Virus record (IMG/VR): IMGVR_UViG_3300042327_000356 | Coordinates: 1-20,164 of that record | Origin: a virus | Direction: 5' to 3' (one strand) | DNA length: 20,164 nt | Shown: positions 6,342-19,996 of the stretch, piece after piece | Layout: each line of letters begins with the position of its first letter | How positions within the stretch are numbered: position 1 is the stretch's first letter | Notes under the pieces: generated by a model | Database searches by the model: none | Seen by the model: only the letters and a program-made list of their open reading frames with translations | Told to the model about the DNA's origin: nothing | Made by a program: the position numbers and the translations under genes

Positions 6342-6662
6342 TTAGGCATTTACAAGACCAAGAGATGCCTCTGAGAGCTTAACCCCAGATGCTTCTTCTA
6401 CAATCTTGTAGACTGTTGGAAGATCTAGATTATCTTCCAAAGCCTTTAAATCTTCAGCCATTTCTGGCTTGTACTGTCTCATTGCAATTTGAACACATTC
6501 CATCAGTAGGCTCATAGACTTGTCGTTGTCTTCTGCTACTGCTGTAATACCCTCAAACTTTTTCATAAATGGACGTAGCAAAGAAATCTTTAGTGGGCGC
6601 ACCTTAACTTCTGTTCCGTCAATTAACTTAATTGTTTTCTCTTCGTATACTTCTGTACTCAT
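6342..6662 (-). CDS. Short tail assembly chaperone paralogue (gpG-like)
   Basis: This 106-residue protein is homologous to the N-terminal half of the chaperone gene just upstream. Shared features in the same order are LIDGTE, PLKI, LR.FM..FE, an (A/S)M.QY.P segment, LED..DLP and YK.(L/V).E.A.G(I/V)K. It lacks the C-terminal T domain. In siphoviruses the short chaperone form (lambda gpG type) coats the tape measure protein during tail assembly and is needed in large excess over the long form. The next gene is the tape measure. A purine-rich AAGGA is 10 nt before the ATG, and an extended -10 element lies in the 52-nt gap upstream, so it may also have its own promoter. It could be a diverged copy with a different role, but its position argues for the gpG role. 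Confidence 0.75.
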   Translation of the reverse strand: MSTEVYEEKTIKLIDGTEVKVRPLKISLLRPFMKKFEGITAVAEDNDKSMSLLMECVQIAMRQYKPEMAEDLKALEDNLDLPTVYKIVEEASGVKLSEASLGLVNA

Positions 6663-6714: not shown

Positions 6715-7416
6715 TTATTTTTTAGGCTTTTTAGTCAAGTCTTCATATCCAAGGCCCATTCCAATTCCAAAACCAGCCTTTTGAGCATTAACTCCTTGGA
6801 GGGCTAAGACGTCATTTCCGTCCTTAGCTTTTCCACCACTGAACACTCTGGCCTTCATGTCTTCCCACTTATTCTCTGGAGCTTGGCTATTGTTCTTATC
6901 TATGTCAACCCCCTGAATAGCGGCCAGGAACTTCTTTTCTTGATAGTCAAGTTCTCTTTTTGACTCTAAGGTTATTAGGAGCTCTGGCATAGACATGCTA
7001 ATTTCTAATTCTTCGTAGTCTTTCCAAATGCCCAGCAAAAAAGCTTCTGCTTCAAGCTTAGCTAAATCAAGCTTGTCCCAAGAAGATCCGCCATCCCCAG
7101 CCTGATCTTTTACAGAGTCTTCAGAATCTTCATTAATTTTTATTCCAGCAGCAATTTCTAAGACCTTGTATATTCCTGGCAAATCCATAGAATCTTCTAG
7201 CTCGGCAATTGTTGCTATTTTGGGATGGTACTGTTGCATTGATATAGCAGCACAATTTGACAGAAATATGATAGCTTCTTCATCGCTATCTGCAGTTTTT
7301 ACAAGCTCAAAGGCTTCCATAAATTCTCTAAGATACTTTATTTTTAATGGAGATAGGTTAATCTCAGTACCGTCAATTAAGCTGACTTTTCCCGTTTTAT
7401 ATATTGTTGTTGCCAT
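6715..7416 (-). CDS. Full-length tail assembly chaperone (gpGT-like, single frame)
   Basis: The 233-residue product joins a G-type N-terminal domain (about residues 1-95) to a T-type C-terminal domain (about 105-180) containing DKLDLAKLEAEAFLLGIW, then SMPELLITLE, DYQEKKFLAAIQGVD, followed by a Gly/Lys-rich tail. These are the usual marks of the long tail assembly chaperone, which recruits tube protein to the tape measure complex. In many siphoviruses this long form arises only by a -1 frameshift; here one continuous frame encodes it and a separate short paralogue follows. I chose the ATG at 7416: a longer reading would need a TTG at 7440 and would run through a TATACT hexamer. There is no Shine-Dalgarno; TATACT lies 6 nt before the ATG, so the mRNA is probably leaderless. 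The gene sits just after a terminator. Confidence 0.85.
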   Translation of the reverse strand: MATTIYKTGKVSLIDGTEINLSPLKIKYLREFMEAFELVKTADSDEEAIIFLSNCAAISMQQYHPKIATIAELEDSMDLPGIYKVLEIAAGIKINEDSEDSVKDQAGDGGSSWDKLDLAKLEAEAFLLGIWKDYEELEISMSMPELLITLESKRELDYQEKKFLAAIQGVDIDKNNSQAPENKWEDMKARVFSGGKAKDGNDVLALQGVNAQKAGFGIGMGLGYEDLTKKPKK

Positions 7417-7422
7417 TATATA

Positions 7423-7428
7423 AGTATA
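7423..7428 (-). promoter_or_regulatory. -10 element for leaderless tail chaperone mRNA
   Basis: TATACT is followed by exactly 6 nt (TATATA) and then the ATG at 7416. A start site 6-7 nt after the hexamer would coincide with the A of the ATG. It comes right after the tail tube terminator, so the chaperone and tape measure genes would need a promoter here. No convincing -35 box is seen. Confidence 0.5.
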
Positions 7429-7430
7429 CC

Positions 7431-7468
7431 GCAAAAACAAAATTACCCAGCCTAAAAAGACTGGGTAA
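7431..7468 (-). terminator. Rho-independent terminator after the tail tube gene
   Basis: The minus strand forms a stem of 10 bp: TTACCCAGTC pairs with GGCTGGGTAA (one G-U), around a TTTTTA loop. It is followed by the T-rich run TTTTGTTTTT. The arms are at 7459-7468 and 7443-7452. It starts 20 nt after the tail tube stop codon and directly precedes the chaperone promoter. Confidence 0.85.
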
Positions 7469-10831: not shown

Positions 10832-11271
10832 TAAATTCCGTACTCTCCAGCAACTTCTTCTGGAGTTGCAATTCTAATGTGGTCACGTTCTGCCCATTTT
10901 TCTGCGGCTTGCTTAGTGACAATATTATACCCCTTAGAAACCTGACCAACTCCAGACCAAGTAACATTTTTTGTAGAGTATACGGCTACGCTTTCTTTTT
11001 CAATAACTGGCTCTTGCTTGGCAGTTTCTTTTCTATCCGCACTACCAGAACCAATAACATTATCGTCGTTTGATACAACTGATGGGTTAGGGCTTGTGGC
11101 CAGCTTGTCAAAGGAAATTACGTTATTGATTTCTGACTCTTTAGACTCTTCAATATGTTTATTTTTAAGCTCTTCTACTGCTTCTTTGTATTTTTCAACA
11201 AGTGGGTGTGGAATTAGTGATTCGCCATCTTGTAGTTGGGCAGGAGCTACATCTATATTTTTTTCTGACAC
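10831..11271 (-). CDS. Unknown post-capsid protein
   Basis: I do not recognise a function for this 146-residue protein. Its first two thirds are acidic, polar and low in hydrophobics, with LVEKYKEAVEELKNKHIEES probably helical and the rest likely disordered. The last 50 residues look like a small folded module: YSTKNVTWSGVGQVSKGYNI, then AAEKWAERDHIRIATPEEVA. Genes with such a C-terminal module are often found just after the capsid gene in actinobacteriophages, but without a proven role; a head decoration or connector role is possible. The start is GTG at 11271 with AAGGAG 6 nt upstream. It overlaps the adaptor gene by one base (TAATG). The gap before it carries the capsid terminator and a promoter-like element. 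Confidence 0.7.
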   Translation of the reverse strand: MSEKNIDVAPAQLQDGESLIPHPLVEKYKEAVEELKNKHIEESKESEINNVISFDKLATSPNPSVVSNDDNVIGSGSADRKETAKQEPVIEKESVAVYSTKNVTWSGVGQVSKGYNIVTKQAAEKWAERDHIRIATPEEVAGEYGI

Positions 11272-11295
11272 TTAAGTCTCCTTCTTTATCTTTTA

Positions 11296-11301
11296 ATTAT
11301 A
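11296..11301 (-). promoter_or_regulatory. Extended -10 promoter element before the connector operon
   Basis: TGTTATAATTAA on the minus strand, directly after the capsid terminator and about 24 nt before the GTG at 11271. It would restart transcription for the connector genes. The 12-mer is identical to the one before the short chaperone gene. Confidence 0.5.
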
Positions 11302-11310
11302 ACAGATATT

Positions 11311-11349
11311 AAAAAAGGGAGCAGGAGATTTTACTCACCTGCCCCCTTT
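11311..11349 (-). terminator. Rho-independent terminator after the capsid gene
   Basis: The minus strand has a 12-bp stem, AAAGGGGGCAGG pairing with CCTGCTCCCTTT with one G-U pair, around a 15-nt loop, followed by TTTTTT. The arms are at 11338-11349 and 11314-11325. It lies 18 nt after the capsid stop codon. Confidence 0.9.
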
Positions 11350-11367
11350 AATAGGTTGCGTTAGACT

Positions 11368-12477
11368 TTAGGAATCGCTAGAGTTTGAGTCAGCGAACGC
11401 AATTGCGTCCTCTTCCTCCCACTGAATACCAAAACGTACGAATACGGTGTATTCAATAGTGTCCTTCTTAGGAACATACTGGCGGTTCACTGTGATGTCT
11501 CTCTGGAAACCCCATACACGGTTCTGTGGGAATGTAAGGTCTACATATCCTGCAGGGTAGTAAGGAACTTCCTGAACATCAATGCCTAGAACACGAGTAG
11601 TGCGAGCACCACCGAATGTCTGGCCCTGGCCGTCAAGGTAAGCCTGGGTATTAGCCTGGGTATTACCGTTCTGACCTAGTGCCTCAGCAATTGCATCTGA
11701 TAGGGTACCGTTGTTCTTAACAATTCCCTGGAATGCGTCTGTACCAGCATAGAACTTAAGATTGCTCTTAAGTGCACGGTACTTCCTTGGCAATGCAAGA
11801 ATAATCTTCTGCATTACGTCTGGTGTCCATGCGTTGTCCGCAACTGTTACAACTGCTTCGTGTGCGTCTCCAGTAGTAGCCTTGTTAACAAATCCGTCCA
11901 TGATGGATAGGAATGCGTCTGAGCCAGTGCCAGTACCGTTGATAGCTAGATCTTCGATGTCATTTGCAAATGCATTTGTCATCAAGCGAACTAGGTGATC
12001 TTCGAGAGCACCTCCTTCAACGTTGTCTTCTAGTGCTTCAGCTGAAACTTCCCAGTCCAGACGAATTTTCTTGGTAGAAAGTTCGACCTTTGAGAATGTT
12101 GCACCTGTGTTTGTGTATACGGCATCAGCCTGAGCTGCTGCACGAATTACACGTTCGCCTACGTTAACTTTTTCAAGTTCCATAGAGTTGGCTCGCATAG
12201 TTACACGACGACCATCTTTGGCGAGAATAGTAGCGTCCCATACGTAGTCAATAAAACGACGTGCCTGTTCAGGGCGTAGGATACCACTTGCCGCATCACC
12301 CGAAGGATTTACGGCATTTGGACCACTTGTTACTCCTAGTGTTGCTGTTGGGATGTTGCCCAGTGTGTCTGCACCTGGGTCAGTTACACCACCAATTCCT
12401 CCAGACGCAAATGCTCCTTGGCCATTGACCTCGTTAGCACCAGTACCTGGATAGTTTTTAATAATCTCTTCCGACAT
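11368..12477 (-). CDS. Major capsid protein (HK97 fold)
   Basis: The 369-residue product is the shell subunit. A Gly-rich flexible N terminus (residues about 1-70) precedes LRPEQARRFIDYVWDATILA, an N-arm/E-loop type region with RRVTMRANSMELEKVNVGER, then VELSTKKIRLDWEVSAEALE, the helical EDHLVRLMTNAFANDIEDLA, and VMQKIILALPRKYRALKSNL. The C-terminal P/A-domain part contains VLGIDVQEVPYYP and NRVWGFQRDITV and ends in an acidic tail. This order is usual for HK97-fold capsids of PBSX-like systems. I chose the ATG at 12477 over a GTG at 12486 because AGGAGGTGA lies 5 nt upstream of the ATG and covers the GTG. A terminator follows directly. No long N-terminal delta domain is present; the scaffold is supplied by the upstream gene. 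Confidence 0.93.
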   Translation of the reverse strand: MSEEIIKNYPGTGANEVNGQGAFASGGIGGVTDPGADTLGNIPTATLGVTSGPNAVNPSGDAASGILRPEQARRFIDYVWDATILAKDGRRVTMRANSMELEKVNVGERVIRAAAQADAVYTNTGATFSKVELSTKKIRLDWEVSAEALEDNVEGGALEDHLVRLMTNAFANDIEDLAINGTGTGSDAFLSIMDGFVNKATTGDAHEAVVTVADNAWTPDVMQKIILALPRKYRALKSNLKFYAGTDAFQGIVKNNGTLSDAIAEALGQNGNTQANTQAYLDGQGQTFGGARTTRVLGIDVQEVPYYPAGYVDLTFPQNRVWGFQRDITVNRQYVPKKDTIEYTVFVRFGIQWEEEDAIAFADSNSSDS

Positions 12478-12482
12478 AATTG

Positions 12483-12491
12483 TCACCTCCT
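12483..12491 (-). promoter_or_regulatory. Consensus ribosome binding site of the capsid gene
   Basis: AGGAGGTGA on the minus strand, 5 nt before the ATG at 12477. It is the best Shine-Dalgarno in the window, fits very high capsid expression, and decides the start. Confidence 0.8.
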
Positions 12492-12502
12492 AGTGATTTT
12501 CT

Positions 12503-13108
12503 TTATTTGAATAGATCGGCAGTTTTGAGGAAACGTCCGCCCCATAGGGATTTCTGAACCTGTTGTGGTTCAGATTCCTGAACGATCTCGCCTAGATCGC
12601 CAGACTTGCGGAAAGCGGTATCTGCTTCTACTGCGTCTACCCTCTTTCCAAACTCATTAAACTGCCCCTTGGCCTCTGTTACCTCATTTTTTACAGAGTC
12701 AATTGACTTGTTTAGTGCAGATACCTGCTCGTGTAGAGCTTTTACGGTATTTGCTAGATCGCTAAAGGCTGATGTTAGAGTACCCTGAATTTCAGCAACT
12801 GCATCAGCAATTACTTCATTCGACTTAGATACCTGATCTACCTCTGTTACAGCTTCTGCCTTCATTTCATCCTTAGACTTCATTTCTTCGTCTTCGTCCA
12901 TGTCGTCAGATTTCTTTTCCTCATCCATGTGTCCAGACTTAATTGCTTCGTCTTCGTCCATGTCGTCAGATTTCTTGTCTTCTTCAATAGAATAAGACTT
13001 CTCTGCTGTATCTTCAGTTGGGGCATCTGCCTCTGGAGCGACCTGTGATTCTTCTACTACCTCGTCAGACTTCTCAACGATGTCTTCTGTGATTGTTTTT
13101 TTACTCAT
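12503..13108 (-). CDS. Nested scaffold protein from an internal start (predicted)
   Basis: An in-frame ATG at 13108 inside the protease gene is preceded by AAGGAGG with an 8-nt spacer. Initiation there would give a 201-residue protein, MSKKTITEDIVEKSDEVVEE onward. It is highly acidic at first, has a 20-residue repeat and a heptad-like coiled coil, and ends in a short basic tail, the usual make-up of an internal scaffold that binds capsid subunits through its C terminus. Lambda C and Nu3 show the same arrangement. The protease domain ends before this start, so the nested product would be a scaffold without protease. The ribosome binding site is seen directly; expression is inferred. Confidence 0.6.
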   Translation of the reverse strand: MSKKTITEDIVEKSDEVVEESQVAPEADAPTEDTAEKSYSIEEDKKSDDMDEDEAIKSGHMDEEKKSDDMDEDEEMKSKDEMKAEAVTEVDQVSKSNEVIADAVAEIQGTLTSAFSDLANTVKALHEQVSALNKSIDSVKNEVTEAKGQFNEFGKRVDAVEADTAFRKSGDLGEIVQESEPQQVQKSLWGGRFLKTADLFK

Positions 13109-13867
13109 AGGACTTACCTCCTTCTTAATCTCAATTGTATTAATGCCTTTAGCACTATCAACCAAGAACTTTATCATATCTGTTTTTTCGTTATCGTCTT
13201 TCTCAACGAAACCTATGTTCTGCATTGGAGCACCAGATGTTGGGCTTTGCTCTGCTTCATTTTCTGACAACATGACTATGCCAGATTCTGCGTCCCAAAA
13301 GACATTTTCAATTGGGGTGTCTAAGCTTTCGCCCTTAATCATATCTACTCCGTTAACTTTTTCGACGGATAAAACATTTGCAAACTGATTTGCTGGATTA
13401 TCTACGAGAGACAATTCTACCAGATCATAGTCTTTAATTATTCGAATTTTTGAATCCATTTTTTCGTCATACCCGTCATCCCACTTGTTCATTTTTCCAC
13501 CAATGGAAAAACCAGAAAGTGTGCCGTCCAAAACTTTTTCCCAGGTGTTCTGAGCACCCTTTGAAATATATGTTGAGACATAAACACCAGAATAGAACTT
13601 CTTGGCTTCTGGGTCAAAATACTTGTCTTCTTTAAAAGAGATCATCTTTCCAACTGCTGTTGGCTGGTGCATTTCTCTGATGTTGCCACGAAACTTGGAG
13701 AAGGCCTTTACGCTGGCTTCTGTTGTAACTATGTCAGCCTGCTTGTCGATGTTATCAAGTGTGGCAAAGCCAGAGACAATACGTCTCTCTACGTCCACTT
13801 TACTGAACGGCATTGATAGGCGAACGTTGTCGCCCTCAGTGTCCCAATGGGCTTTTTGCATAGTCAT
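12503..13867 (-). CDS. Prohead maturation protease with C-terminal scaffold region
   Basis: This 454-residue protein joins a capsid maturation protease (HK97 prohead protease / XkdF-like, S78 type) to a scaffold-like region. Residues about 20-170 are the protease: RIVSGFATLDN, the His in IREMHQPTAVGK (His67), the Ser in LSGFSIGG (Ser121) and the conserved LVELSLVDNPAN block. Residues 170-250 are a linker. From about 254 the chain is strongly acidic with a 20-residue repeat containing KKSDDMDEDE, then a coiled coil (about 355-420) and a basic C terminus ending GRFLKTADLFK. An internal Shine-Dalgarno and ATG lie at the junction. Such proteases act inside the procapsid, cutting scaffold and themselves. 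TATAAT lies 9 nt before the ATG and no Shine-Dalgarno is seen. Confidence 0.9.
   Translation of the reverse strand: MTMQKAHWDTEGDNVRLSMPFSKVDVERRIVSGFATLDNIDKQADIVTTEASVKAFSKFRGNIREMHQPTAVGKMISFKEDKYFDPEAKKFYSGVYVSTYISKGAQNTWEKVLDGTLSGFSIGGKMNKWDDGYDEKMDSKIRIIKDYDLVELSLVDNPANQFANVLSVEKVNGVDMIKGESLDTPIENVFWDAESGIVMLSENEAEQSPTSGAPMQNIGFVEKDDNEKTDMIKFLVDSAKGINTIEIKKEVSPMSKKTITEDIVEKSDEVVEESQVAPEADAPTEDTAEKSYSIEEDKKSDDMDEDEAIKSGHMDEEKKSDDMDEDEEMKSKDEMKAEAVTEVDQVSKSNEVIADAVAEIQGTLTSAFSDLANTVKALHEQVSALNKSIDSVKNEVTEAKGQFNEFGKRVDAVEADTAFRKSGDLGEIVQESEPQQVQKSLWGGRFLKTADLFK
12886..12976. repeat. 60-bp direct repeat in the scaffold region
   Basis: A 31-bp perfect direct repeat occupies 12886-12916 and 12946-12976, with a period of 60 bp. 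It encodes two copies of a 20-residue unit that begins KKSDDMDEDE, so it is an in-frame coding duplication and not a regulatory repeat. Confidence 0.85.
13117..13123 (-). promoter_or_regulatory. Internal ribosome binding site for nested scaffold
   Basis: AAGGAGG on the minus strand, 8 nt before the in-frame ATG at 13108 within the protease gene. The full protease gene itself has no such site at its own start. Confidence 0.65.
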
Positions 13868-13876
13868 GTTATTTCA

Positions 13877-13882
13877 ATTATA
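13877..13882 (-). promoter_or_regulatory. -10 element just before the protease gene
   Basis: TATAAT on the minus strand followed by 9 nt and the ATG at 13867, in the 47-nt gap after the portal gene. No Shine-Dalgarno is present, so mRNA from here would be leaderless or have a leader of a few bases. Confidence 0.45.
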
Positions 13883-13914
13883 AGGCTCTTTTATGAAAAG
13901 TATCAAAAATGATG

Positions 13915-15546
13915 CTATTCTGAAGACCTTCCCTCTCCAGCTGGATTTCGTCCAGCCAAAGTGGCAGAGCTATCTGAAGAGTTATTGGCTCTTTCAGAAT
14001 CTCTTTCTCTGTTCTGAGAGGTGTTAGCTCTTGCATCTGCGGCTTGCCTAGTAGACATTTCAAATGGCTCATCGCCGTCTGGTCTCTGGGGTAGGCCAAG
14101 CTTTTCACGAGCTTCGTTGGGAACCATAATCTGAGTCTTTACATATCTTTCAAGGATCTGTGACTGAGCAATCTCGTCTGTCAGGGTTAGCTCATTAAAC
14201 TTAAAGTCTAGAATATCAGTCTTTTCTCTAACAACCTTCTGGATCATCTTTTCTAGATTTGCCTGAGCTGGCCTTGCTACCTGCTCTTTAAACGTACGGT
14301 CTTGTGCTAAAGCAGCTGCAATGTTAGAAGCATCTCCTCCACCAATCTTTGACAATGGCACTTGGTGCGCAACTAGTATGTCATCTCTATTTCTAAGCCG
14401 ATAGTCATTAAAGGAAGCCTCCTGAACGCCTGCCTCAATTGGCTCCATCTTGAACTCTACCTTATTAGTATCAGTATCTGCTGGCAAAGGAATATAAAGG
14501 GTTCTGTGAGACTGACCCTTTAGGCTAGTCTGAAGGAACCTAAACATCTTGTCTTCTGCGTCAGAGGATAGCTTGGCTCCCTTTAGTGTTACGATATATC
14601 TTGGGACACCCTTGTTTCCAAAGTAATCGATGTTGTACTGAGAGGCCAACTGGTCTCCATGCAAAGATGAAATTGCAGACATAATATCTGGAACTCCATA
14701 GAATGTGTTTAGCGGTGAGTATTCTTTGTAGTGAATAATCTCATTTGGTCTTGGGTCTGCAGTAATTGGGTTCTGATTCTTTGCCGCAAAGTTCTTAAAA
14801 TAAACAACCTTTTGACCAATAATCTGAACATAGCCATCACGAAGTCTTCGAACTCTCATAGTTGTGGATGGTATGTGACCAAGGTAACCAATCTCACCAG
14901 TTACGGTTCTTCCAACCTCTAGGTAACCATTTCCAGTTGCCTGAACGTCTGTGTAAAACTTCATCATTGTATTAGAGAAAGAGTCATCGCTATTCAGAGT
15001 TTCTAGCCATTCACGCATTTCAACTTTCGCTCTTTCAATACGCTTCCTGGCCTTGTCTGTTGCAGTTTCGCTAGTAGAAGCCTCAAGCTGCATCATGGTC
15101 CTTTTTGAAACCTGGAAGTCATATCCAAGGCCAACAATGTTTTCTACCTTTGCGTCAATTGCTGCATGATTAGCAAAAGAAGTGTCGTAATAATTTGCAA
15201 GCTCATAAAGGTTCCATGGCGGAGTAATAACGTCAAACATTCCATATCCGTTATGGAATACTGATCCAGGATTGATCTCTTTGGATCTTGCACCGTTTTG
15301 TCCAAAACTTGTAGCTAGAGCCCTATCCTGATATCCCTCGCTTAGGGTGTCTACTCCAGTAAAAGAAAGACTGTCGTATGCTTTTACAATACGATCAGAA
15401 CGTCTTTTAAAATTTTTCTCTAGGCCGTAAAAACCTTTTAGATCATCCCATTTTTTGCTAAAGGGGTCTTGCTTCTTAAAAAGATCTTCTTCTTGCTCAG
15501 GCTCTGGGGTAAAGGCCTGTATTGGATACTGATACTCATCAGACAT
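13915..15546 (-). CDS. Portal protein (PBSX-type)
   Basis: The 543-residue portal forms the dodecameric ring at one capsid vertex through which DNA is packaged and ejected. A charged N terminus leads to VFHNGYGMFDVITPPWNLYE, then HAAIDAKVENIVGLGY (about 127-142), YTDVQATGNGYLEVGR (198-213), the NEIIHYKEYSPLNTFYGVPD block (268-287), the stem-like helical part with LHGDQLASQYNIDYFGNKGV, and QVPLSKIGGG (395-404). The last 50 residues are polar and probably disordered. These are typical of the PBSX/YqbA-type branch of phage portals, and the length fits. The ATG overlaps the upstream stop codon as TAATG, with GGAG 10 nt upstream, suggesting coupled translation with the small protein before it. Protease and capsid genes follow. 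Confidence 0.93.
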   Translation of the reverse strand: MSDEYQYPIQAFTPEPEQEEDLFKKQDPFSKKWDDLKGFYGLEKNFKRRSDRIVKAYDSLSFTGVDTLSEGYQDRALATSFGQNGARSKEINPGSVFHNGYGMFDVITPPWNLYELANYYDTSFANHAAIDAKVENIVGLGYDFQVSKRTMMQLEASTSETATDKARKRIERAKVEMREWLETLNSDDSFSNTMMKFYTDVQATGNGYLEVGRTVTGEIGYLGHIPSTTMRVRRLRDGYVQIIGQKVVYFKNFAAKNQNPITADPRPNEIIHYKEYSPLNTFYGVPDIMSAISSLHGDQLASQYNIDYFGNKGVPRYIVTLKGAKLSSDAEDKMFRFLQTSLKGQSHRTLYIPLPADTDTNKVEFKMEPIEAGVQEASFNDYRLRNRDDILVAHQVPLSKIGGGDASNIAAALAQDRTFKEQVARPAQANLEKMIQKVVREKTDILDFKFNELTLTDEIAQSQILERYVKTQIMVPNEAREKLGLPQRPDGDEPFEMSTRQAADARANTSQNRERDSERANNSSDSSATLAGRNPAGEGRSSE

Positions 15547-15917
15547 TAATACTCATCTCCATAAAGCTCTAGGGTTTTCTTTGCTGCCATAACAGCGCCA
15601 ATGTCATTCATTGATGGAATTAGTCCTTGTTTCATTCTGTCTACCTGTTCGCTATATTCTTCATCGCTAATTCTTGATGTTCCTGGAAAAAACACGGGCG
15701 TTCCGTCGGGCTCACCGTGATAAGCAGCTGTTTGCTTTAGCTTAGCTATTTGATCTTTATCGCCCTTATTGGCTGGAATGTTTAAAATGTTGCCATTTCC
15801 ATCAGTGAACCACTTTCCGTTAGATTTTTTCCAAACGTATACTCCCCAAGCATACCCAGTTTGCTCAACTAGGGTTACTTTTGCTTTACCAATTGCTTCT
15901 GCGAATTTGTCTTCCAT
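15546..15917 (-). CDS. Small conserved-type protein before the portal, unknown function
   Basis: The 123-residue protein is charged and soluble, with no membrane segment. It contains WGVYVWKKSNGKWFTDGNGN, then AAYHGEPDGTPVFFPGTSR, and EEYSEQVDRMKQGLIPSMND, ending in a short helix. Proteins of this style precede the portal gene in some actinobacteriophages, but I know no assigned function. The start is chosen as the ATG at 15917: the GTG at 15923 would lie one base after a TATACT hexamer, whereas the ATG is 7 nt after it, the spacing of a leaderless promoter. There is no good Shine-Dalgarno. The stop codon overlaps the portal ATG by one base, so the two are probably translated together. Confidence 0.75.
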   Translation of the reverse strand: MEDKFAEAIGKAKVTLVEQTGYAWGVYVWKKSNGKWFTDGNGNILNIPANKGDKDQIAKLKQTAAYHGEPDGTPVFFPGTSRISDEEYSEQVDRMKQGLIPSMNDIGAVMAAKKTLELYGDEY

Positions 15918-15924
15918 GACCACT

Positions 15925-19539: not shown

Positions 19540-19983
19540 TTAGCTTTCTTCTGGTGGAGAGAAGCTTTCTCCATCCCATGTCCACCAATAAGAGACATCT
19601 TCTGAAAAATCAGTTATATCCATTCCAATTACGGCACCCGTACTAAATGCAGCCTCAAAAGAATTTTTAAGCAGTGAAAGACTGTCCGTTAAGTCTAATA
19701 CCATAAAAACCAATTTTTCTTTGTCAAGCAAAGCGTACCTTTTTTGATTTGAATTAGTCTCAAAAATAATGCTATCCTCTGGGAGATGGGAGTTATCAAA
19801 GCTCTCGCCATTCCAAATTGATCCAATTGCTATATTTGGGATGCCGCTTATGTCTAGCCCTGTTGGCTCATTTAAAAAGCCATTTGACCATCTTAAAAAA
19901 ACCTCATCTTCATAATTGCCTGCTATTGGCATAATGTGAAAAATTTCATTTTCTACTAAAAAAGCATATCTTTTCTTTTCCAT
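19540..19983 (-). CDS. Two-repeat protein beside the adhesin, unknown function
   Basis: This 147-residue protein is built of two copies of one domain. Copy 1 (about 4-70) runs from KRYAFL to WNGESF...LPE; copy 2 (about 81-146) runs from KRYALL to WDGESFSPPEE. Both have a central G(L/M)DI and end in W.(N/D)GESF. The WDG..F.PP ending resembles short proteins and fibre C termini encoded near tail fibre genes, so a role as an accessory or chaperone of the neighbouring large protein is plausible but unproven. I chose the ATG at 19983: an ATG at 19992 overlaps a TATAAT hexamer, which then lies exactly 7 nt before the chosen start. No Shine-Dalgarno is present. Confidence 0.7.
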   Translation of the reverse strand: MEKKRYAFLVENEIFHIMPIAGNYEDEVFLRWSNGFLNEPTGLDISGIPNIAIGSIWNGESFDNSHLPEDSIIFETNSNQKRYALLDKEKLVFMVLDLTDSLSLLKNSFEAAFSTGAVIGMDITDFSEDVSYWWTWDGESFSPPEES

Positions 19984-19990
19984 ATTAATC

Positions 19991-19996
19991 ATTATA
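19991..19996 (-). promoter_or_regulatory. -10 element for leaderless mRNA of the two-repeat protein
   Basis: Consensus TATAAT followed by 7 nt (GATTAAT) and the ATG at 19983. It lies in the short gap after the stop codon of the PFFPP-repeat gene. Confidence 0.5.

Follow-up and report, generated by a model that had tools for sequence, protein, structure and literature searches.

A conserved internal start in the S78 prohead-protease gene of a large actinophage group probably yields a nested scaffold protein

The S78 prohead-protease gene of a 20,164-nt viral DNA (IMG/VR record IMGVR_UViG_3300042327_000356; the whole stretch is termed the window) carries an internal Shine-Dalgarno (SD) sequence in front of an in-frame start codon, and this site is almost certainly used to begin a second, shorter protein. 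On the minus strand, AAGGAGG (13123–13117) is followed by an 8-nt spacer (13116–13109) and by ATG (13108–13106), codon 254 of the 454-codon gene, reading ...GAGATTAAG AAGGAGG TAAGTCCT ATG AGT AAA... The ATG codons at 13867 and 13108 are separated by 759 nt, or 253 codons, and are thus in the same frame. A first-pass annotation of the DNA had reported this motif with its spacing and frame, all of which are exact. The nested open reading frame encodes an acidic, helical product of 201 residues (22.2 kDa, pI 4.3) that has its C-terminus in common with the long protein. Judged by its position and composition, this product is very likely the scaffold of the capsid. We also strongly favor the two-product model as a whole, in which a leaderless fusion and an SD-led scaffold co-assemble and deliver the protease. 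This reading would name the missing scaffold of a large actinophage group comprising the Stanwilliamsviridae, their Rhodococcus relatives, and abundant freshwater viruses. The features discussed are collected in Table 1.

Table 1. Positions of the features at the protease-scaffold locus of the window
Feature	Position	Strand	Observation
−35-like element TTGATA, weakly conserved	13901..13906	−	11/12 promoter match with 18-nt spacer
−10 box TATAAT, 9 nt before ATG 13867	13877..13882	−	TATAAT in 69/69 distinct close homologues
Full-length protease-scaffold gene	12503..13867	−	open frame, 454 codons including stop
Protease domain, residues 1–240	13148..13867	−	AlphaFold pLDDT mostly 70–86
Predicted stem-loop just 5′ of internal SD	13129..13167	−	complete outer stem in 52/52 distinct sequences
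Internal SD AAGGAGG	13117..13123	−	88/88 distinct close homologues; GGAGG in all distant homologues but one
Possible 4-bp hairpin AGGA/TCCT over SD	13109..13122	−	TCCT right before ATG in 82/88
Nested candidate scaffold ORF, 201 codons, in frame, co-terminal	12503..13108	−	ATG kept 88/88; ATG/GTG after GGAGG 152/153
Acidic disordered segment, residues 254–344	12836..13108	−	40% Asp+Glu; AlphaFold
Single long helix, residues 345–422, likely coiled coil	12602..12835	−	AlphaFold pLDDT about 80
Tail with conserved SLWGGRFLKTADLF, candidate capsid-protein-binding tail	12506..12601	−	putative function
Major capsid protein, HK97 fold, without delta domain	11368..12477	−	TIGR01554 48.1 bits

In-frame internal GGAGG-N5..11-ATG/GTG is absent from every other CDS of the window. 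In a single sequence, the chance of one such site among the few intragenic AGGAGG motifs is estimated to be of the order of 10%; because this is not very rare, the evidence beyond chance comes from the comparison of homologues. The close set comprises 88 distinct genes from a viral-contig scan, down to ~61% protein identity, and AAGGAGG and ATG are kept in register in every one of them. The Lys-Glu pair at the SD is written AAG GAG in 88/88, these codons accounting for 61% of Lys and 41% of Glu codons there. The next residue is variable (V/E/A/G/D) with a codon that always begins with G, so that the protein varies here without loss of the seventh SD base. Loss of the SD by synonymous change under conserved residues, which the first-pass annotation had named as evidence against a start, occurs in 0/88. 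Its further proposal, an alignment that asks whether the motif is kept beyond the demands of the protein, gives a clear answer in a wider set of 153 distinct genes, formed by the close homologues, a second freshwater clade, and the Streptomyces and Rhodococcus relatives. GGAGG with an in-frame ATG/GTG is found in 152 of these, against 36 expected from a gene-by-gene shuffle of synonymous codons.

At the same junction, the second freshwater clade, the Streptomyces phages (both Stanwilliamsviridae subfamilies), and the Rhodococcus phages (34–43% identical) carry GGAGG followed 7–10 nt on by ATG/GTG. Distant relatives write the SD in other frames and residues (EGGVI, EGGNE, GGAEQ, GGQSN), and wherever Val occupies the internal start position its codon is GTG, although GTG makes up 5% of Val codons. 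The sole exception among the 153 is NiceHouse, in which AAAGGAGA precedes an ATG at this position by 11 nt. The viral-contig scan with the Rhodococcus protein as query returned two matches only. The conservation of Lys-Glu inside the window's clade is what a mere by-product of protein sequence or codon bias would predict; such an origin is highly unlikely, since other clades encode the same SD through other residues and the motif far exceeds its shuffled expectation. The nested start is unannotated in the database records of the relatives examined (Streptomyces phages, Rhodococcus phages, and freshwater viruses), and a literature search, with subscription journals largely outside its reach, turned up no paper that describes a nested scaffold for these phages.

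Constraint at the DNA level points to the same site. Synonymous changes were counted along a minimum spanning tree in 7-codon windows, giving 5 against 93 expected around codon 252 in the window clade, 0 against 34 around codon 261 in the second freshwater clade, and 2 against 21 around codon 266 in the Streptomyces Loccivirinae. The lowest z is −10 to −12 at the internal start, compared with −4.9 in the portal gene control and −7.2 in the capsid gene, values that rank the sites and are not probabilities, as changes were treated as independent. A ribosome pause between domains, slowing translation while the protease folds, would account for this synonymous constraint on SD-like codons and for their location exactly at the domain boundary. 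Pausing, however, needs no start codon, yet an in-frame ATG/GTG follows at 7–10 nt in 152/153 genes and the Val codon there is invariably the rare GTG, which makes a pause site very unlikely and leaves a translation start as the preferred reading.

Further constrained stretches occur in the same gene. A short DNA-level island, GTCGCTCCAGAGGCAGATGCC, lies in the acidic linker at codons 276–282 (13042–13022), with GCT CCA GAG identical in 88/88. At the 3′ end of the gene, TCCCTATGGGGCGGACGTTTCCTCAAAACTGCC (12562–12518, codons 436–450, and downstream to 12477) is nearly invariant in DNA across 88 sequences, its lowest window having 8 synonymous changes against 134 expected. This island stands directly before the SD of the capsid gene and may serve the expression of that gene as an RNA element; in two further clades, too, the protease-scaffold gene is constrained at its 3′ end. 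Predicted pairing between the three synonymous islands was no better than shuffled for islands 1–2 and 1–3, and slightly better for islands 2–3 (−23.8 versus −18.1 ± 3.6).

The synonymous island at the internal start reaches back to codon 228, and in the window clade this upstream constraint is explained by a predicted stem-loop. Its 6-bp outer stem joins TCTTGG (13167–13162) to TTGAGA (13134–13129) and encloses an inner hairpin, AGTGC (13156–13152)/GCATT (13146–13142); 5 nt separate its 3′ foot from AAGGAGG. The outer stem remains intact although the 3′ arm codes for TIEI, LSKM, TSKI, or, where one codon is missing, KT-EI, and it is still complete in homologues with an indel in the loop. It is 98.5% paired, compared with 32–47% in slid controls, and the fold z is −2.7. 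Covariation is weak (3 double-sided cells only, with 27/500 shuffles as high), since the 5′ arm hardly varies; the case for the stem is therefore built on its pairing staying complete while the encoded residues change, and on the comparison with slid controls. The structure might keep the SD free, stabilize a processed 5′ end, or regulate ribosome entry. Over the SD itself, the possible AGGA/TCCT hairpin is paired in 97% of cells and absent from other clades. The predicted RNA structure leaves the internal SD only partly open, with a mean unpaired probability of about 0.45, a point against the two-product model. An Rfam search of 11000–14200 gave no match.

The herpesvirus gene UL26.5 has its own transcript, and the scaffold could likewise come from its own mRNA through a promoter inside the protease gene. 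A candidate, TTGATA-16-TACAAT (13161–13134), stands a short way 5′ of the SD and ranks with the best promoter matches of the region. TACAAT is, however, replaced in most homologues while the SD and ATG stay, it is absent where the linker is one codon shorter, and the upstream constraint is better explained by the stem-loop. With its −10 element not conserved, the candidate was rejected as a separate promoter of the UL26.5 type, and an origin of this kind is improbable; an extra internal transcript or a processed 5′ end may exist in addition. Stimulation by AAGGAGG of −1 frameshifting was likewise rejected. The slippery A AAA AAC (13101–13095) begins about 15 nt past the SD, which speaks for such a function, but this A7 run is not conserved in the alignment: it is private to the window's nearest kin, and homologues read ATGACTGACACA, ATGAATGAAACA, and the like while SD and ATG remain, so that frameshifting is scarcely credible.

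The long gene appears to begin in a different manner. The first-pass annotation had noted that its start at 13867 lacks an SD, and the upstream sequence, ...TTATAATTGAAATAACATG, bears this out; what was overlooked is that this gene without an SD has a −10 promoter box 9 nt ahead of its ATG. TTGATA-18-TATAAT is the best promoter match of the scanned region, its −35 element varying between homologues. Among the close upstreams, T-4 and A-3 of the −10 box are present in 97%, and an SD core in 2/69 only. Across the whole family, TANNNT ends 5–11 nt before the long start in 102/102 distinct upstreams, compared with 35% after shuffling; in this count the Trina row matched the wrong ATG, and its leaderless reading comes from the alignment of homologues. 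Leaderless genes, which are common in Actinobacteria, are recognizable by TANNNT about 12 bp ahead of the start (PMC3160421). The long gene fits this class by sequence, with a −10 box 5–11 nt before its start and without an SD, and the position of the box would explain why the SD is missing. A transcription start is predicted near 13870, giving a leaderless mRNA, and we regard a leaderless long form as highly probable.

The protease starts annotated in Trina, Grayson, and LukeCage fall within the −10 box or ahead of it, and leaderless translation there probably begins at the following in-frame ATG, which lies 6–10 nt past the box and lines up with the other homologues. These genomes are generally enriched in TATAAT-N6..10-ATG (96 sites against 36 for the reversed control, four records), so leaderless starts are not peculiar to the protease-scaffold gene. 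Elsewhere in the window, the mechanical ORF starts of 19540–19992 and 15546–15923 look too early, TATAAT-7-ATG (Met-Glu-Lys-Lys) and TATACT-7-ATG suggesting leaderless starts inside them.

At the protein level, the long product belongs to the S78 family by Pfam Peptidase_S78 (PF04586; 29.1 bits against a cut-off of 21), falls below the stricter TIGR01543 equivalog (25.6 bits against 59), and matches the PHROG 9427 head maturation protease with E 2e-119. Foldseek BFVD matches of the model are prohead/XkdF proteases, and H67, S102, and S121, putative catalytic residues, are invariant in 50 sequences. AlphaFold, run with a 50-sequence alignment, predicts a folded protease at residues 1–240, a disordered acidic stretch at 242–344, a helix at 345–422, and a disordered tail. 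In this model Met254 falls where the protease domain has ended and the disordered linker begins, in agreement with the earlier claim that the internal ATG marks the junction of the two parts. In the tail, F446 is invariant and S440, W442, G444, L447, and L452 are nearly invariant (50 diverse sequences). A PDB sequence search matched the helix to coiled-coil proteins only and the capsid protein to nothing; a PDB fold search with the model, half of which is disordered, gave no match below E 0.1. The tail half had no scaffold-family match of its own, and Phage_scaffold PF06810 was absent from two long relatives tested. The acidic linker contains an exact 10-residue repeat, KKSDDMDEDE, at residues 298–307 and 318–327 (12976–12947 and 12916–12887).

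The gene neighborhood is consistent with a scaffolding role. The minus-strand order is portal (15546–13915), protease (13867–12503), and capsid gene (ATG 12477 to 11368), the last with its own SD, AGGAGG (12491–12486), likewise 8 nt before the ATG. The TIGR01554 alignment begins at profile position 103, residue 58 of the capsid protein, beyond the part that would correspond to the HK97 delta domain; a capsid protein without this domain leads one to expect a separate scaffold. As the protease-scaffold gene is the sole gene between portal and capsid genes in the window, its short product is the natural candidate, and acidity, the predicted helix, and analogy with known systems point the same way. 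In most Streptomyces relatives, an extra gene, often membrane-annotated, lies between portal and protease; the window has none (13915/13867). Further along, 6342–6662 and 6715–7440 are adjoining genes between candidate tail-tube and tape-measure-like genes that look paralogous by eye (...LIDGTE...LKI...), perhaps duplicated tail assembly chaperones that replace one frameshifted gene.

From these features we infer internal initiation in vivo, a scaffold-to-fusion ratio, and protease delivery along the following lines. The promoter with its −10 box 9 nt before ATG 13867 would produce an mRNA almost without a leader, which would be translated into the 454-residue protease-scaffold fusion, while a second ribosome entry on the same mRNA, at AAGGAGG/ATG 13108, would yield the 201-residue scaffold alone. 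Scaffold and fusion would co-assemble under the capsid protein through their common helix and tail, and a limited number of protease domains would thereby enter the procapsid and later degrade the scaffold. In the window clade, the stem-loop upstream of the SD may keep or regulate access to the internal site. M. tuberculosis genes of the leaderless and the SD type do not differ overall in how much protein each mRNA gives (PMC3898074), so the earlier expectation of little fusion and much scaffold need not follow from the start signals; an excess of the short form is plausible and somewhat favored, though not deducible from them. We offer only tentatively the further idea that two initiation modes on one mRNA set the ratio, with the stem-loop tuning the second. 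If this were true, the ratio of the nested shell proteins would follow the state of the host ribosomes. The gene would also offer leaderless and SD initiation side by side in nature, so that the use of one could be measured against that of the other.

Among known systems, TA-led leaderless genes of Actinobacteria resemble the long gene in carrying TANNNT at about 12 bp from the start codon; the window differs in that a predicted leaderless start and an SD start share one gene and would give two nested products. In HK97 (gp4/gp5), too, the gene for an S78-family protease adjoins that for an HK97-fold capsid protein. HK97, however, does without a separate scaffold and uses residues 1–102 of its capsid protein in that role (PMC8508860), whereas the capsid protein of the window is without the delta-domain part. 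Herpesvirus UL26/UL26.5 shares the protein layout, the long form consisting of an N-terminal protease and a C-terminal scaffold and the short form of the C-terminal part; its long form makes up about 10% of total scaffold, and the tails bind capsid protein (PMC12474303). In the window the signal is a ribosome site, and the comparison of homologues found no conserved internal promoter.

The closest parallel is lambda C/Nu3, with which the first-pass annotation had compared the gene. The likeness holds for the layout: an in-frame, co-terminal nested frame, in the window for a probable scaffold, within a portal-protease-capsid block, a second same-frame start at the end of the protease domain, and even the length, Nu3 also having 201 residues. 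It fails for the start strengths, which are reversed. Lambda C, an S49 peptidase, has a strong SD (GAGGAGGAGAAGA-GTG) and the annotated Nu3 start a poor one, whereas the window combines an S78 protease, a leaderless-type long start, and a perfect SD at the nested start; the reversal arises because the long gene looks leaderless. With the same layout and Peptidase_S78 in place of S49, the gene would work like C/Nu3 without being a homologue of C. The nested protease/scaffold arrangement is thus already known from lambda and the herpesviruses; its apparent occurrence on an S78 protease, where the start signals are reversed, suggests more than one origin for it.
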